Source: a bacterium (GTDB taxonomy: Bacteria > Patescibacteriota > Saccharimonadia > Saccharimonadales > Saccharimonadaceae). From it: DNA of 48,110 nucleotides. The notes under the pieces were generated by a model, which was not told the origin of the DNA, did not search any database, and saw only the letters and a list, made by a program, of their open reading frames with translations. The stretch covers positions 1-48,110 of the forward strand of contig JAUIFG010000007.1 in the NCBI GenBank assembly GCA_030429445.1. Reading direction: 5' to 3'. Shown here piece by piece: positions 41,435 through 47,503 of this stretch (the stretch's first letter is position 1; the number at the start of each line of letters is the position of its first letter). Both the position numbers and the translations under genes were made by a program.

Positions 41435-42562
41435 ATGGAAGATCTAAACATCAAGCAATTGACGCTGGCATTGCGTACGATTGCCGAAGAAAAAAATTTA
41501 CCAGAAGAAACAGTCCTTAGCGTTATCGAGCAAGCAATCGCTGCCGCATGGCGACGTGATAATGGCGAACGCGACCAAGAGGTTCGTGCGGAATTGAACA
41601 TCAACAAGGGAACCGCCGAGGTATTTGTTGCCCGTGAAGTCGTAGAGAGCGTTGGTAGTGACAGTGTCGAGATCAGCCTAGAAGATGCAAAAAAGGAAAA
41701 GAAAGATGCAAAGATCGGTGACATTATCGAGGAATCGCATGTCGTGACTTCCTTTGGTCGAGTTGCTGCTCAGACGGCAAAACAAGTTGTTTTACAGCGA
41801 TTGCGTGAAGCAGAACGCGAAGTCGTATTAGCTGAGTATGAGGATAAGATCGGCACGGTTGTGACTGGTACTGTCCAGCGTGTTGAGCCACGTGTTATTC
41901 GTGTGGAACTTGGTAAGGCAACGGGTATCATACCTCAGTCAGAGCAAATCCAGGGCGAATTTTACAGCATCGGTAGTCGAATCAAGGTGTTTATCAAAGA
42001 CATCGAGCGTGACAATCGTGGTCCTCAGCTCATTTTGAGTCGTGGTAATGAAGCTTTTGTTGAGTATTTATTCCGTCAAGAAGTCCCAGAGATGGAGACG
42101 GGAGCTGTTGAGATCAAAACGATTGCTCGTGAGGCGGGACGTCGAACTAAATTGGCAGTCGCAAGTAGTGTACCTGGTGTTGATCCAGTCGGTACATTTG
42201 TCGGCGGCCATGGTACTCGTGTTCAAGCGGTGATGAACGAAATTGGTGATCAGGAAAAAATAGATATTGTTACTTTTGATGAAGATACTGAACAGTTTAT
42301 TCGAAATTCTTTGAGTCCAGCTGAAGTTGCAAAGGTTGAAATTGATGAAAAGAACAAGAGTGCTAAGGTTTTTGTTGCTGAAGATCAACAGTCCATTGCA
42401 ATTGGTCGTGGTGGTCAAAATGTTCGTTTAGCATCCCGTCTAACAGGGTATGAATTGGATATTGAAACAGCCGAACCTGCGAAAAAAGCTGAACCGGCAA
42501 AGCCAAAAAAGAACATCGAAGACAGTCTATTGAGTGCCATTGAGCAATCTGGCGACGAATAG
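41435..42562 (+). CDS. nusA: Transcription termination/antitermination factor NusA
   Basis: NusA binds RNA polymerase and nascent RNA to control pausing and termination. The 375-residue protein has the N-terminal polymerase-binding domain (1-125), an S1 domain (TGTVQRVEPRVIRVELGKATGIIP), and two KH domains (KIDIVTFDEDTEQFIRNSLSPAEV and IAIGRGGQNVRLASRLTGYELDI). It then ends in an acidic tail; the C-terminal acidic repeats of E. coli NusA are absent, as in many bacteria. AAGGA lies about 13 nt before the ATG, so the ribosome site is not optimal. It stands alone: the usual rimP and infB partners are not beside it. Confidence 0.95.
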   Translation: MEDLNIKQLTLALRTIAEEKNLPEETVLSVIEQAIAAAWRRDNGERDQEVRAELNINKGTAEVFVAREVVESVGSDSVEISLEDAKKEKKDAKIGDIIEESHVVTSFGRVAAQTAKQVVLQRLREAEREVVLAEYEDKIGTVVTGTVQRVEPRVIRVELGKATGIIPQSEQIQGEFYSIGSRIKVFIKDIERDNRGPQLILSRGNEAFVEYLFRQEVPEMETGAVEIKTIAREAGRRTKLAVASSVPGVDPVGTFVGGHGTRVQAVMNEIGDQEKIDIVTFDEDTEQFIRNSLSPAEVAKVEIDEKNKSAKVFVAEDQQSIAIGRGGQNVRLASRLTGYELDIETAEPAKKAEPAKPKKNIEDSLLSAIEQSGDE

Positions 42563-42583: not shown

Positions 42584-42623
42584 TTAGCACTCGCTTGACT
42601 AGAGTGCTAATTCTGGCTATACT
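42584..42623 (+). promoter_or_regulatory. CIRCE operator overlapping the clpC promoter
   Basis: TTAGCACTC (42584-42592), nine bases, GAGTGCTAA (42602-42610) is a perfect CIRCE element, the binding site of the heat-shock repressor HrcA. Overlapping it is a near-consensus promoter, TTGACT (42595-42600), 17-bp spacer, TATACT (42618-42623). HrcA bound here would cover the -35 box. The leader before ATG 42682 is about 50 nt and includes GGAGGA (42670-42675). Confidence 0.96.
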
Positions 42624-42681
42624 GGAGTGCAACGTAAGACAATATACAAAAAGCTTGCGTTCAATCATTGGAGGACAGATA

Positions 42682-45171
42682 ATGAGTGGTATGCCCGAAG
42701 AGTTCCAGGATTTTGTTACACACCTAACGGACAATGCTCGTACGAGCCTGCAACATGCCGAGGCAATTGCGCGTGGCTACGGTAGTGCATATATAGGTAC
42801 TGAACATCTCCTTCTTGGCGTACTGGCTCAAGGTTCGTCTGTTGCCGCGAAAGTATTGGCAGATTCTGGTGTCACACTCGATAGGGCAGAACTTGCGCTA
42901 AATCTTACACCACGGAATCTCATTGTGAGCACAGGTTCAAGGGGTCTGTCGGAAACGGCAAAGCTAACACTCAAGATGAGCTGGGATATAGCACAGGAGT
43001 TCCATCAGGATTACCTAGGAACCGAACATATTCTCTACAGTATTCTCAGCCAAAAAAATGCACGAGCTACAGTGCTTCTGCGTGATATGAGTATCGATAT
43101 ACCAACACTTACTAGCGAATTAGAGGAATTTTTTGATCGCCAATCTAGTAATTATCATGAATCTTTAGAAAATTCGAATTCCAAGACATTGCGAAAGAAA
43201 CGAAGTGGTGTATTGGAGGTTTATGGTACAGATCTGACCAGCAAGGCAAAAGAGGGCAAACTAGACCCTGTTATCGGGCGAGACAAGCAACAAGAACGGC
43301 TCGTTACTATTTTGAGTCGTAGGACAAAAAATAACCCCGTTTTGATTGGTGAGCCTGGTGTTGGCAAGACTGCAGTCGTTGAAGGTTTGGCTCAGCGAAT
43401 CGCTCACGAGGACGTGCCGGATCATTTACTAGATCGTCGCGTTGTGCAGTTGGACATCGCTGCAATGATAGCTGGTACGAAATATCGTGGCGAATTTGAA
43501 GAACGCCTAAAGAAAGTGATTGACGAGCTGAAGAAGCAAAAGAATGTTATTCTGTTTGTTGACGAATTACATCTCATTGCAGGTGCTGGTGCGGCAGAGG
43601 GTGCATTGGACGCAGCAAATATGCTCAAGCCAGCGCTTGCTCGCGGCGAACTACATATGATTGGCGCAACAACACTTGAGGAATATCGCAAGCATATCGA
43701 AAAAGATAGTGCCCTGGAGCGACGATTCCAATCTATTATTGTCAAAGAGCCATCAATCAAAGATACAATTGCAATCCTAAAAGGCCTCAAGCCATATTAT
43801 GAGAATCATCACGGGGTTACTATTAATGATGAAGTTATCGAAGGCGCCGTCTACATGGCGGATAGATATGTTAGTGAACGATTCATGCCAGACAAGGCAA
43901 TTGATGTGATCGACGAAGCGGCGGCATTGGTTCATGTTAAGCACAGCCACAGACCTAGCAGGGTGCGTGATTACACAAAACAGCTCAAGAATTTGAATGA
44001 AAAGATGGACGAAGCGGTGACTGCCGAGGATTATGAACGGGCCGCATTGTACAAGACTCGCATTAGTCAGCTGAATGAAAAGTTAGCAGAGTTGAAACAG
44101 CGCGACAAAGAAAAATCACCAGTTATTTTGAAGGACGATGATTTGGCGCGAGCCGTCGCAACGATGACGGGAATTCCGGCTGAGCGATTGCAAAAATCGG
44201 AAATTAAATTGTTGCGCAAATTAGAAAAACACTTAGGCAAGTATATTATTGGTCAAAACGAAGCAGTTGAAACAGTAGCTAAAGCAATCCGTCGTAGTCG
44301 TAGTGGTGTTGCTAGTCATCAGCGACCAATTGGTTCATTCGTGTTCATGGGTCCAACTGGTGTTGGTAAGACAGAGCTTGCTCGCGTGTTGGCTCGCGAA
44401 GTATTTGGTAGTGATGACTCACTCATAAAAATCGACATGAGTGAGTTCGGCGAGAAACATAATACAAGTCGTTTGGTTGGTGCCCCGGCTGGATATGTTG
44501 GGTATGAAGACGGAGGCAAGTTGACTGATAAGATTCGTCGACAACCGTATAGTGTTGTATTGTTTGACGAGATTGAAAAGGCTCATCCCGACGTATTCCA
44601 CATGCTTTTGCAACTACTCGAAGATGGAAAACTGACCGATTCAAAGGGTCGTGAAGTAGATTTTACGAATACTATCGTTATCCTAACGAGCAATTTAGGT
44701 GCCGAGAAAATGATGAAGGAATCGTCACTAGGATTTCATTCTTCATCCGCAAAGGATGCGAAAAAGCTCGATGAATTGCACGAAGAAAATGCAAATGCGG
44801 CACGTGATGCACTCGGTAAGCATATGCGTCCAGAGCTCATAAATAGGTTTGATGATATTGTTGTCTTCCGCGCATTAACGCCGAGAGAGGTTGGCAAGAT
44901 TTTTGATAATTTGGTAGATGAATTGCAAGAACGACTCGTACAAAAAGGTCTTCGTCTCGTGATCAAGCCAACGGCAAAGCGTCATCTTATAAAAGAGGGC
45001 TATCATGAGAAATTTGGTGCACGCCCGCTTCGTCGAGTTATTCAGAATGAATTGGAACATCGGCTTGCTGAGGGTATACTGAGTGGAGAATATGAACGTG
45101 GCAGTCTGTTGACTGTTACAGCAAGAGGGGGCGACCTTGCGATCACAATCAATGCAGAACAACCGGCCTAA
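42682..45171 (+). CDS. clpC: ClpC-type AAA+ protease ATPase
   Basis: ClpC unfolds proteins and feeds them to ClpP. In 829 residues it has two N-terminal Clp repeats (about 1-145; [30 protein letters not shown]), AAA domain 1 (Walker A GEPGVGKT at 223-230, Walker B ILFVDELH), and a middle UVR-type segment ([15 protein letters not shown]). AAA domain 2 follows (GPTGVGKTE at 557-565, [11 protein letters not shown]). A tripeptide LGF within ESSLGFHS occupies the ClpP-binding loop position. I chose ATG 42682, which follows GGAGGA; an upstream TTG-type start would lie inside the CIRCE element. It is the first gene of an operon with the metalloprotease-like gene and radA. Confidence 0.96.
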
Positions 45172-46144
45172 AAAACGCTACGTCGGCACTATAGTATCAA
45201 GCATTTTTGTTATCGCTGTTAGTTTGTATATAGGGCTCAATTTTCAATACATTTTTGATTGGGTGAATTATCAAACGTATGATCCGCCTGCCGCCGTGGC
45301 ATCTATTGCTGAAGAATCACGTTTTACCAACGATGGCTTGTTCGCTTTTTATTCAGCACAACCAGCTATTGATGGGACGAGGGTATTTAATGTAAAGTGC
45401 GATCGTAAAGAGGAAAATACAGCAATCTTGGGTTGTTATGCGGCCAACAAGATATACATCTTTGATGTGACTGATGAGCGCCTCGATGGAATACAAGAAG
45501 TAACGGCCGTGCACGAAATGCTGCACTTTGTTTATCAAAGGACATCGGGGGCTGATCTTGAAAAGATCAACGCATTATTGGACATCGAGGCAAAGAAACT
45601 AGAAAAGGATAAAGAATTTGCAGATCGAATGGAATTTTATGCACGTACCGAGCCCGGAGAAAGATACAACGAACTTCATTCAATCATAGGGACAGAAGTA
45701 AGCAAAATAAGCGATGAGCTCGAAGAGTATTACGAAAAGTATTTTGATCGCCAGCATATAGTTGAGCTACACAAAGATTACAAGAAAGAGTTTGAGAAAT
45801 TAGAAGTACGTGCCGAACAGCTAAAAAAACAAATCGACTCAGTTTCTAGCAAGATTGACAAGGCAAAGGACGCGTATGCGCGCGACATCAAGAGTCTCGA
45901 TCGCGATATAGCCAACTTTAATGCACGTGCTGATAATAACGATTTTACATCCCAGTCGCAATTTGATGCGGAGCGAGCATCGCTTATTAGTCGAGTGGAC
46001 CAACTCAAGCACACCCGAGCATCAATTAACGCGATGGTTGACACGTACAACAAACTTATCAAAGAGCATAATGATATCGTGATAGAGTCACGTGAACTCT
46101 ATCAAAGTATTGATAGCTCGCTCGCACCGGCACCAAGTGTATAA
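45152..46144 (+). CDS. Membrane-anchored HExxH (putative metallopeptidase) protein with coiled coil
   Basis: 330 residues from ATG 45152, which overlaps the clpC end by 20 nt; an in-frame TTG at 45137 is less likely. A basic N terminus precedes a membrane helix (about 11-30), so most of the protein is probably extracytoplasmic. Residues 118-130 read TAVHEMLHFVYQR, a zincin-type HExxH (H121, E122, H125). E174 or H176 in YNELHSIIGTE could be the third ligand. Cys83 and Cys95 may pair. From about 185 to 320 the chain is a long coiled coil (EEYYEKYFDRQHIVELHKDYKKEFEKL...). I know no named family. Enzymatic activity is inference. Confidence 0.72.
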   Translation: MQNNRPKKRYVGTIVSSIFVIAVSLYIGLNFQYIFDWVNYQTYDPPAAVASIAEESRFTNDGLFAFYSAQPAIDGTRVFNVKCDRKEENTAILGCYAANKIYIFDVTDERLDGIQEVTAVHEMLHFVYQRTSGADLEKINALLDIEAKKLEKDKEFADRMEFYARTEPGERYNELHSIIGTEVSKISDELEEYYEKYFDRQHIVELHKDYKKEFEKLEVRAEQLKKQIDSVSSKIDKAKDAYARDIKSLDRDIANFNARADNNDFTSQSQFDAERASLISRVDQLKHTRASINAMVDTYNKLIKEHNDIVIESRELYQSIDSSLAPAPSV

Positions 46145-46156
46145 TAAGTATCAAGT

Positions 46157-47503
46157 ATGGTGAAGTCTAAAACTCTTTTTGCATGTCAGCAGTGTGGCAC
46201 GACGTATCCGAAATGGACAGGTAAGTGTGATAATTGTGGCGAATGGAACAGCCTGGTTGAGCAGGCTCTGGCGAGTTCGGGTAAATCTGCAGTTGCACGA
46301 AGTAGCGGTAGTATCCTAAAACCACAAACGATGCATGCAATTGAATCGAGTGATGCATCGGCACGTTTGGTGACTGGAATTGATGATCTTGATAGTGTAC
46401 TGGGGGGCGGGGTTTTACTCGGTGGTGTTGTACTACTGGCAGGTCAGCCCGGCATCGGAAAGAGTACGCTCTTGCTGCAGGTTGTTACGCATATGGCTTC
46501 CAAAACACCGATTCTCTATGTGAGCGGTGAAGAGTCTGCGGGGCAAATCAAGCAACGTGCTGTGCGCTTGGGGGGCGAGGGAGAGCATTTGCACTTTGTA
46601 GCGAGCACGAGCGCCGATGATATCGCAGCCACGATTCGTTCTGATGCATACAAGTTGGTTGTTGTTGACTCAGTTCAGACGCTGACACTCGGTGAAATTA
46701 CCTCAGCACCGGGTAGTGTTAGTCAGATAACGAATAGTAGCAATGTTATTATTCAAGCCGCCAAGGCCTCTAATACGGCAGTTATTTTGGTTGGACATGT
46801 CACCAAAGAGGGTTCGATTGCTGGTCCGAAGGTGCTTGAGCATCTCGTTGATGTTGTGTTGCAGTTTGAAGGAGATAGGTATGGTGGATTCAAAGTAGTC
46901 CGAGCAGTCAAGAACCGTTATGGATCAACCAGCGAGGCTGTTATATTCGAGATGGACGAAAAGGGCCTGTCGGTCGTCGAGAACCCATCAGCGGCCTTGC
47001 TGGCAGAACGACAAGACGCCGATGGTTCGGTAGTGCTAGCTACGCTTGAAGGCAACAGGCCTCTTTTAGTAGAAATTCAAGCACTTGTCAATCCAACCAA
47101 TTTCGGGTATCCTAAACGTACAGCCAGTGGGTTTGATCTCAACCGTCTCAACTTGCTCATCGCCGTACTTGAGCGACGGACAAAACTGAATTTATCGGAT
47201 AAAGATATTTATATCAATGTGGTTGGCGGACTAAAGCTTGTTGATCCTGCGGCTGATCTCGCTGTTTGCATGGCGATTGCGAGTGCAGCCGCTGGACGAC
47301 GGTTGGATGACGGAGTTGTCGTATTCGGCGAGGTGGGTCTAGGTGGAGAAGTTAGATCTGCCAGTAGTGTTCAAAAACGGATTGATGAAGCAAAGAAACT
47401 TGGATTTACGCGTGCCATCGCACCAACTACAGGCAAAAAGCAGGCATTCATAACGGGAGTCAAAGACCTCCGTCAAGCACTTATTAATTACCTGCAAAAG
47501 TAA
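46157..47503 (+). CDS. radA: DNA repair protein RadA
   Basis: RadA (Sms) is a RecA-like helicase that extends strand exchange in recombination and natural transformation. The N-terminal zinc finger has C10, C13, C24 and C27 (FACQQCGTTYPKWTGKCDNCG). Walker A is GQPGIGKS at 96-103. The RadA-specific KNRxG motif is KNRYG at 252-256. The C-terminal Lon-like domain (about 280-448) includes KLNLSDKDIYINVVGGLKL and AAGRRLDDGVVVFGEVGLGGEVR. At 448 residues it is full length. It follows the metalloprotease-like gene by 12 nt, so HrcA-controlled transcription may extend into it. Confidence 0.96.
   Translation: MVKSKTLFACQQCGTTYPKWTGKCDNCGEWNSLVEQALASSGKSAVARSSGSILKPQTMHAIESSDASARLVTGIDDLDSVLGGGVLLGGVVLLAGQPGIGKSTLLLQVVTHMASKTPILYVSGEESAGQIKQRAVRLGGEGEHLHFVASTSADDIAATIRSDAYKLVVVDSVQTLTLGEITSAPGSVSQITNSSNVIIQAAKASNTAVILVGHVTKEGSIAGPKVLEHLVDVVLQFEGDRYGGFKVVRAVKNRYGSTSEAVIFEMDEKGLSVVENPSAALLAERQDADGSVVLATLEGNRPLLVEIQALVNPTNFGYPKRTASGFDLNRLNLLIAVLERRTKLNLSDKDIYINVVGGLKLVDPAADLAVCMAIASAAAGRRLDDGVVVFGEVGLGGEVRSASSVQKRIDEAKKLGFTRAIAPTTGKKQAFITGVKDLRQALINYLQK

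Follow-up and report, generated by a model that had tools for sequence, protein, structure and literature searches.

Probable HrcA/CIRCE control of a clpC-ORF2-radA operon in a Saccharibacteria-type genome

In Firmicutes, clpC lies in the operon ctsR-mcsA-mcsB-clpC-radA. The Clp genes of this phylum are controlled by CtsR (PMC3472708), and in bifidobacteria clpC and clpP are controlled by ClgR, with HrcA sites listed at groEL, groES and hrcA only (PMC9004370). Repression by HrcA at the CIRCE operator, and its relief when GroEL is occupied, are described as established in other systems (Mogk 1997, cited in PMC7737663). A one-repressor HrcA network in a reduced genome has already been described for the mycoplasmas (M. 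pneumoniae, Spiroplasma; PMC7737663, PMC5138195); the targets in M. pneumoniae are dnaK, dnaJ, clpB, groESL and lon, and tig and lon have a CIRCE between them (PMC7737663). Saccharibacteria depend on a host and few of their regulators are known; methods for their genetic manipulation are available (PMC10633639). Most chaperones of TM7x were higher in the initial host encounter, and the part of that transcriptome report drawn on here names no regulator (PMC10768705). In the literature searched, which left most subscription journals outside its scope, we found no paper on a CIRCE upstream of clpC, none on HrcA in Patescibacteria or the candidate phyla radiation, and no account of HrcA control of clpC or clpP as a class-wide feature of Saccharibacteria. 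The original prediction for the DNA studied here had taken clpC under CtsR in Firmicutes as its reference, a comparison that is misplaced because the genome is taken to be Saccharibacteria-type.

In this study, we describe the operator, the promoter and the gene order at clpC, the hrcA gene, the other CIRCE sites and their conservation, starting from a window of 48,110 nucleotides (the whole stretch of DNA analysed), which is contig C12 of an assembly of 825,529 bases (13 contigs, 97.5% complete). The sequence TTAGCACTC-GCTTGACTA-GAGTGCTAA at 42584-42610 matches the CIRCE pattern with 0 mismatches, as had been claimed, and the chance expectation for the window was 0.00 (100 dinucleotide shuffles). 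It ends 71 bp before the clpC ATG. The claimed overlap with a near-consensus promoter was borne out as well: TTGACT-17-TATACT is the top promoter-like match of the region (10/12), to which we can add that TTGACT lies entirely within the N9 spacer. Promoter-like matches as such were no commoner in the region than in shuffles, and for that reason the weight of this promoter call comes from its conservation. Our best explanation is that the palindrome serves as a working HrcA operator over the promoter of the clpC-ORF2-radA operon (Table 1), and from the sequence evidence we give this explanation as a whole a probability of about 0.88.

Table 1. Features at the clpC locus (positions in the window)
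Feature	Position	Strand	Remarks
nusA	41435..42562	+	Next gene upstream; 21 bp from its end to CIRCE, with no terminator found there
CIRCE operator TTAGCACTC-N9-GAGTGCTAA	42584..42610	.	0 mismatches
-35 hexamer TTGACT	42595..42600	+	Within CIRCE N9 spacer
-10 hexamer TATACT	42618..42623	+	17 bp from -35
clpC 5' leader (inferred start site)	42630..42681	+	CTTGCG block, predicted hairpin, Shine-Dalgarno GGAGGA
clpC	42682..45171	+	Clp_N, two AAA+ domains, UVR motif, D2-small domain
ORF2	45155..46144	+	Membrane helix at the N terminus, HExxH (HEMLH), long coiled coil at the C terminus; overlaps clpC end
radA/sms	46157..47503	+	12 bp after ORF2

The genome carries seven CIRCE sites at up to 2 mismatches, against 0 for the reversed-pattern control (2 when 3 mismatches were allowed), and all seven lie directly before chaperone or Clp genes: dnaJ, dnaK (two sites), hrcA-grpE, groES-groEL, clpP, which stands immediately behind the trigger-factor gene, and clpC. 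The further copies that the original prediction had proposed to look for at groES-groEL, dnaK and hrcA are present, together with those at dnaJ and clpP. All six promoters share one layout: the -35 (TTGACT, TTGACG, TTGAAT, TTGCAC or TTGCAA) is within the CIRCE spacer or borders it, and after another 16-17 bp comes a -10 resembling TATAAT; a repressor bound at CIRCE would cover the -35. The proposed search for ctsR found none in the genome (no PF05848 match, in a search whose control recovered CtsR in Lactococcus), and no CtsR box precedes clpC or clpP with up to 3 mismatches allowed, on which grounds CtsR control of clpC was rejected. Neither this genome nor 30 relatives (31 genomes) encode a ClpX above the curated family cut-off; the weak matches resemble other AAA+ proteins. 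Since no CtsR and no such ClpX were found, refolding (GroEL, DnaK) and disposal (ClpCP) are probably both under a single transcriptional switch, HrcA, and the best reading of the site distribution is that it would directly repress almost the entire network of chaperones and ClpCP. The broader suggestion that one repressor runs the whole protein-quality response stands for dnaK, dnaJ, hrcA-grpE, groESL, clpP and clpC; it fails for trigger factor and for a membrane-anchored Clp-like AAA+ protein, which have no CIRCE of their own. This second double-AAA+ Clp-like protein (L039, G000:C6:72000-79000) has N-terminal membrane helices in an 859-codon frame, and similar matches occur in most relatives.

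A 9-bp perfect inverted repeat directly after nusA might be thought mainly a terminator of that gene or an RNA hairpin. However, no T run follows the repeat and the terminator scan did not list it, so the terminator reading was rejected; it is also the exact CIRCE letters that are conserved and not merely a stem, identical letters stand before dnaK, dnaJ, hrcA, groES and clpP, and the inferred clpC start lies downstream of the repeat. We regard a role mainly as terminator or hairpin as extremely improbable.

The palindrome that we take to be an HrcA operator is kept in close and distant relatives, as the original prediction required of a genuine site. With 0-2 mismatches it precedes clpC in 53 of 54 genomes of the class (29/29 genomes with upstream DNA, including this one, 4/4 and 20/21), and at the lone exception (L219, G040) clpC lacks its first ~40 residues, with the start missing, and the upstream DNA is unrelated. 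Judged by ClpC, the closest named contigs include Candidatus Saccharibacteria (61-64% identity), which is why we take the genome to be Saccharibacteria-type; the named Candidatus Saccharibacteria clpC loci also carry CIRCE. Of 55 related clpC promoters, 54 have a -35 of the TTGAC/TTGCA type that begins within the N9 spacer, at an offset of 0, 1, 2 or 4, and a -10 that follows 16-18 bp on. Because the offset shifts while the spacing to the -10 is preserved, the promoter is displaced as one piece inside the operator, and both are maintained together. It is conceivable that CIRCE is real and bound by HrcA and that the clpC message is nevertheless mostly read-through from the nusA operon, HrcA adding a modest heat boost: with nusA only 21 bp from CIRCE and no terminator found between, read-through could supply ClpC without a clpC promoter, and nusA is a conserved neighbour in most relatives. 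The retention of the near-consensus -35/-10 as a unit in all of these promoters except one argues against this, as do the varying distance between nusA and CIRCE and the loci (e.g., L040, L183) with no nusA match in the upstream DNA examined, and we consider read-through as the main source unlikely. At clpP, CIRCE (up to 3 mismatches) was found in 24/30 relatives; G010 and G020, two of the six without it, have clpP downstream of a CIRCE-bearing clpC in the same orientation, 20 bp and about 1 kb away. Some relatives gave no full-length ClpC match. Neither a full-length ClpC nor a ClpP match was obtained in G012, G018 and G019 (91-99% complete), an apparent joint loss of the ClpCP protease.

With regard to the repressor, hrcA, whose presence the original prediction had left to be checked, occurs once in the genome (PF01628, 65.5 bits against a cut-off of 22.2) and leads hrcA-grpE, itself behind a CIRCE. 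The protein falls just below the cut-off of the stricter NCBIfam equivalog TIGR00331 (185.9 against 197.2), and from its likeliest start, MTERQ, it is about 235 aa long, some 100 aa less than HrcA of Thermotoga (338 aa). It aligns to TIGR00331 in two stretches, positions 1-124 and 187-337 of 338, and because these leave a gap in the model and overlap in the protein, some 60-90 positions of the family model are absent; the missing part is probably the inserted dimerisation domain. Given the short length and the score below the TIGR00331 cut-off, dimerisation and stress sensing may therefore differ. HrcA reading frames across the phylum are mostly of 226-300 codons, so that a short HrcA is common there. 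The shortened, sub-threshold HrcA of this lineage, and the 4 of 73 phylum genomes with strict CIRCE that show no HrcA match, might suggest that a regulator other than HrcA uses the palindrome. We find this very unlikely in view of the winged-helix DNA-binding domain (residues 13-90), which matches Thermotoga HrcA (1STZ, E 4.8e-17), the position of hrcA behind its own CIRCE, and the co-occurrence of CIRCE and HrcA among 192 phylum genomes (HrcA in 69/73 with strict CIRCE against 93/119 without; Fisher p 0.002, relatedness ignored). The presence of hrcA and the persistence of the palindrome support the originally predicted direct control of clpC by HrcA.

The gene behind the operator encodes a ClpC by its Clp_N, two AAA+ domains and UVR motif (Pfam), and by a short D1-D2 distance unlike that of ClpB (334 between the Walker A motifs against 402 in a ClpB). 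The usual gene order in the class is nusA-CIRCE-clpC-ORF2-radA, and it seems best to read clpC as the head of a conserved operon comprising clpC, an HExxH membrane protein gene and radA. ORF2 is tied to clpC across the class. Its HExxH is invariant in 33/33 relatives, NExHS is also invariant and the TE residues are nearly so. It has no fitting family in Pfam or NCBIfam, the predicted full-length structure (pLDDT 85.8) gave structural matches to the coiled coil only, and the domain predicted alone gave a poor model (pLDDT 59.3). We would guess that ORF2 is a putative membrane-anchored metalloprotease, protease activity being suggested by the HExxH.

The clpC leader has features of its own. Across the family, clpC leaders carry GATAAT and a CTTGCG block whose spacing to GGAGG hardly varies; here CTTGCG lies at 42654-42659, upstream of GGAGGA and the ATG, and its exact pattern occurs once in the genome, before clpC. 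A leader hairpin with differing arms is stabler than when its upstream arm is shuffled (mean z -1.95, 17 related sequences), and the window gave no Rfam family match. It is possible that this hairpin is a second layer of control. Unlike dnaK, groES and clpC, which have a leader with a ribosome-binding site, hrcA (L006:18088-18831), dnaJ (L006:5011-6108) and clpP (L007:4067-4666) are apparently leaderless, with only 6-7 bases from the -10 hexamer to the ATG.

In other classes of the phylum, CIRCE (up to 2 mismatches) lies near 8 of 24 ClpC- or ClpE-like genes, whose Walker A spacing, where measurable, is 324-340, against 402 in ClpB. Among 73 clpC loci from outside Patescibacteria (Firmicutes, Cyanobacteria, Chloroflexi and other groups), each with 300 bp or more of upstream DNA, none had a CIRCE with up to 3 mismatches. 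At one locus of another Patescibacteria class (L154), CIRCE precedes a gene whose product starts like a primary sigma factor.

Known HrcA biology suggests how the locus may operate. Under normal conditions an HrcA dimer bound at CIRCE would cover the spacer -35 and keep RNA polymerase off the clpC promoter; misfolded protein occupying GroEL would cost HrcA its activity, and clpC would then be transcribed together with clpP, groESL, dnaK, dnaJ and hrcA-grpE. Binding, repression, GroEL control and heat induction are here presumed by analogy. If this is correct, one repressor probably presides over most of the protein repair and disposal of a tiny-genome bacterium, and ClpCP control has a third solution, next to CtsR and ClgR. 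One repressor, seven operators and one promoter design make a testable wiring diagram, and the HrcA-controlled promoters are candidates for heat-inducible parts and for reporting stress in cultivated Saccharibacteria. More tentatively, and at somewhat less than even odds, a shortened HrcA may be, Saccharibacteria-wide and repeatedly in other Patescibacteria, the single switch for refolding and Clp proteolysis in place of CtsR or ClgR, one that would also control a new family of HExxH proteins, anchored in the membrane and transcribed together with clpC, the conserved leader hairpin acting as a second layer.

Compared with the class I HrcA/CIRCE regulon of the Bacillus subtilis type, the operator letters and spacing, the targets hrcA-grpE, dnaK, dnaJ and groESL, and the position of hrcA behind its own site are the same; the inclusion of clpC and clpP, the lack of CtsR, and a -35 that lies within the spacer or borders it at every promoter are different. 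The Firmicutes CtsR regulon likewise has clpC and clpP repressed and clpC near radA, whereas here CIRCE stands in place of CtsR, McsA and McsB, and clpC is separated from radA by the gene for an HExxH membrane protein. Bifidobacterial ClgR is also one regulator for clpC and clpP, but it is an activator with another motif. The mycoplasma regulon shares the reduced genome and HrcA over chaperones and ATP-dependent proteolysis, and its tig-CIRCE-lon arrangement resembles tig-CIRCE-clpP here; it differs in its targets, lon and clpB there and clpC and clpP here. By this analogy, the present case would follow the principle of the M. pneumoniae HrcA regulon, disposal here falling to ClpC and ClpP. 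The parts are already known, HrcA control of lon, clpB and chaperones being documented in mycoplasmas, and the clpC/clpP case is an extension of the known HrcA regulon and not a new kind of system.
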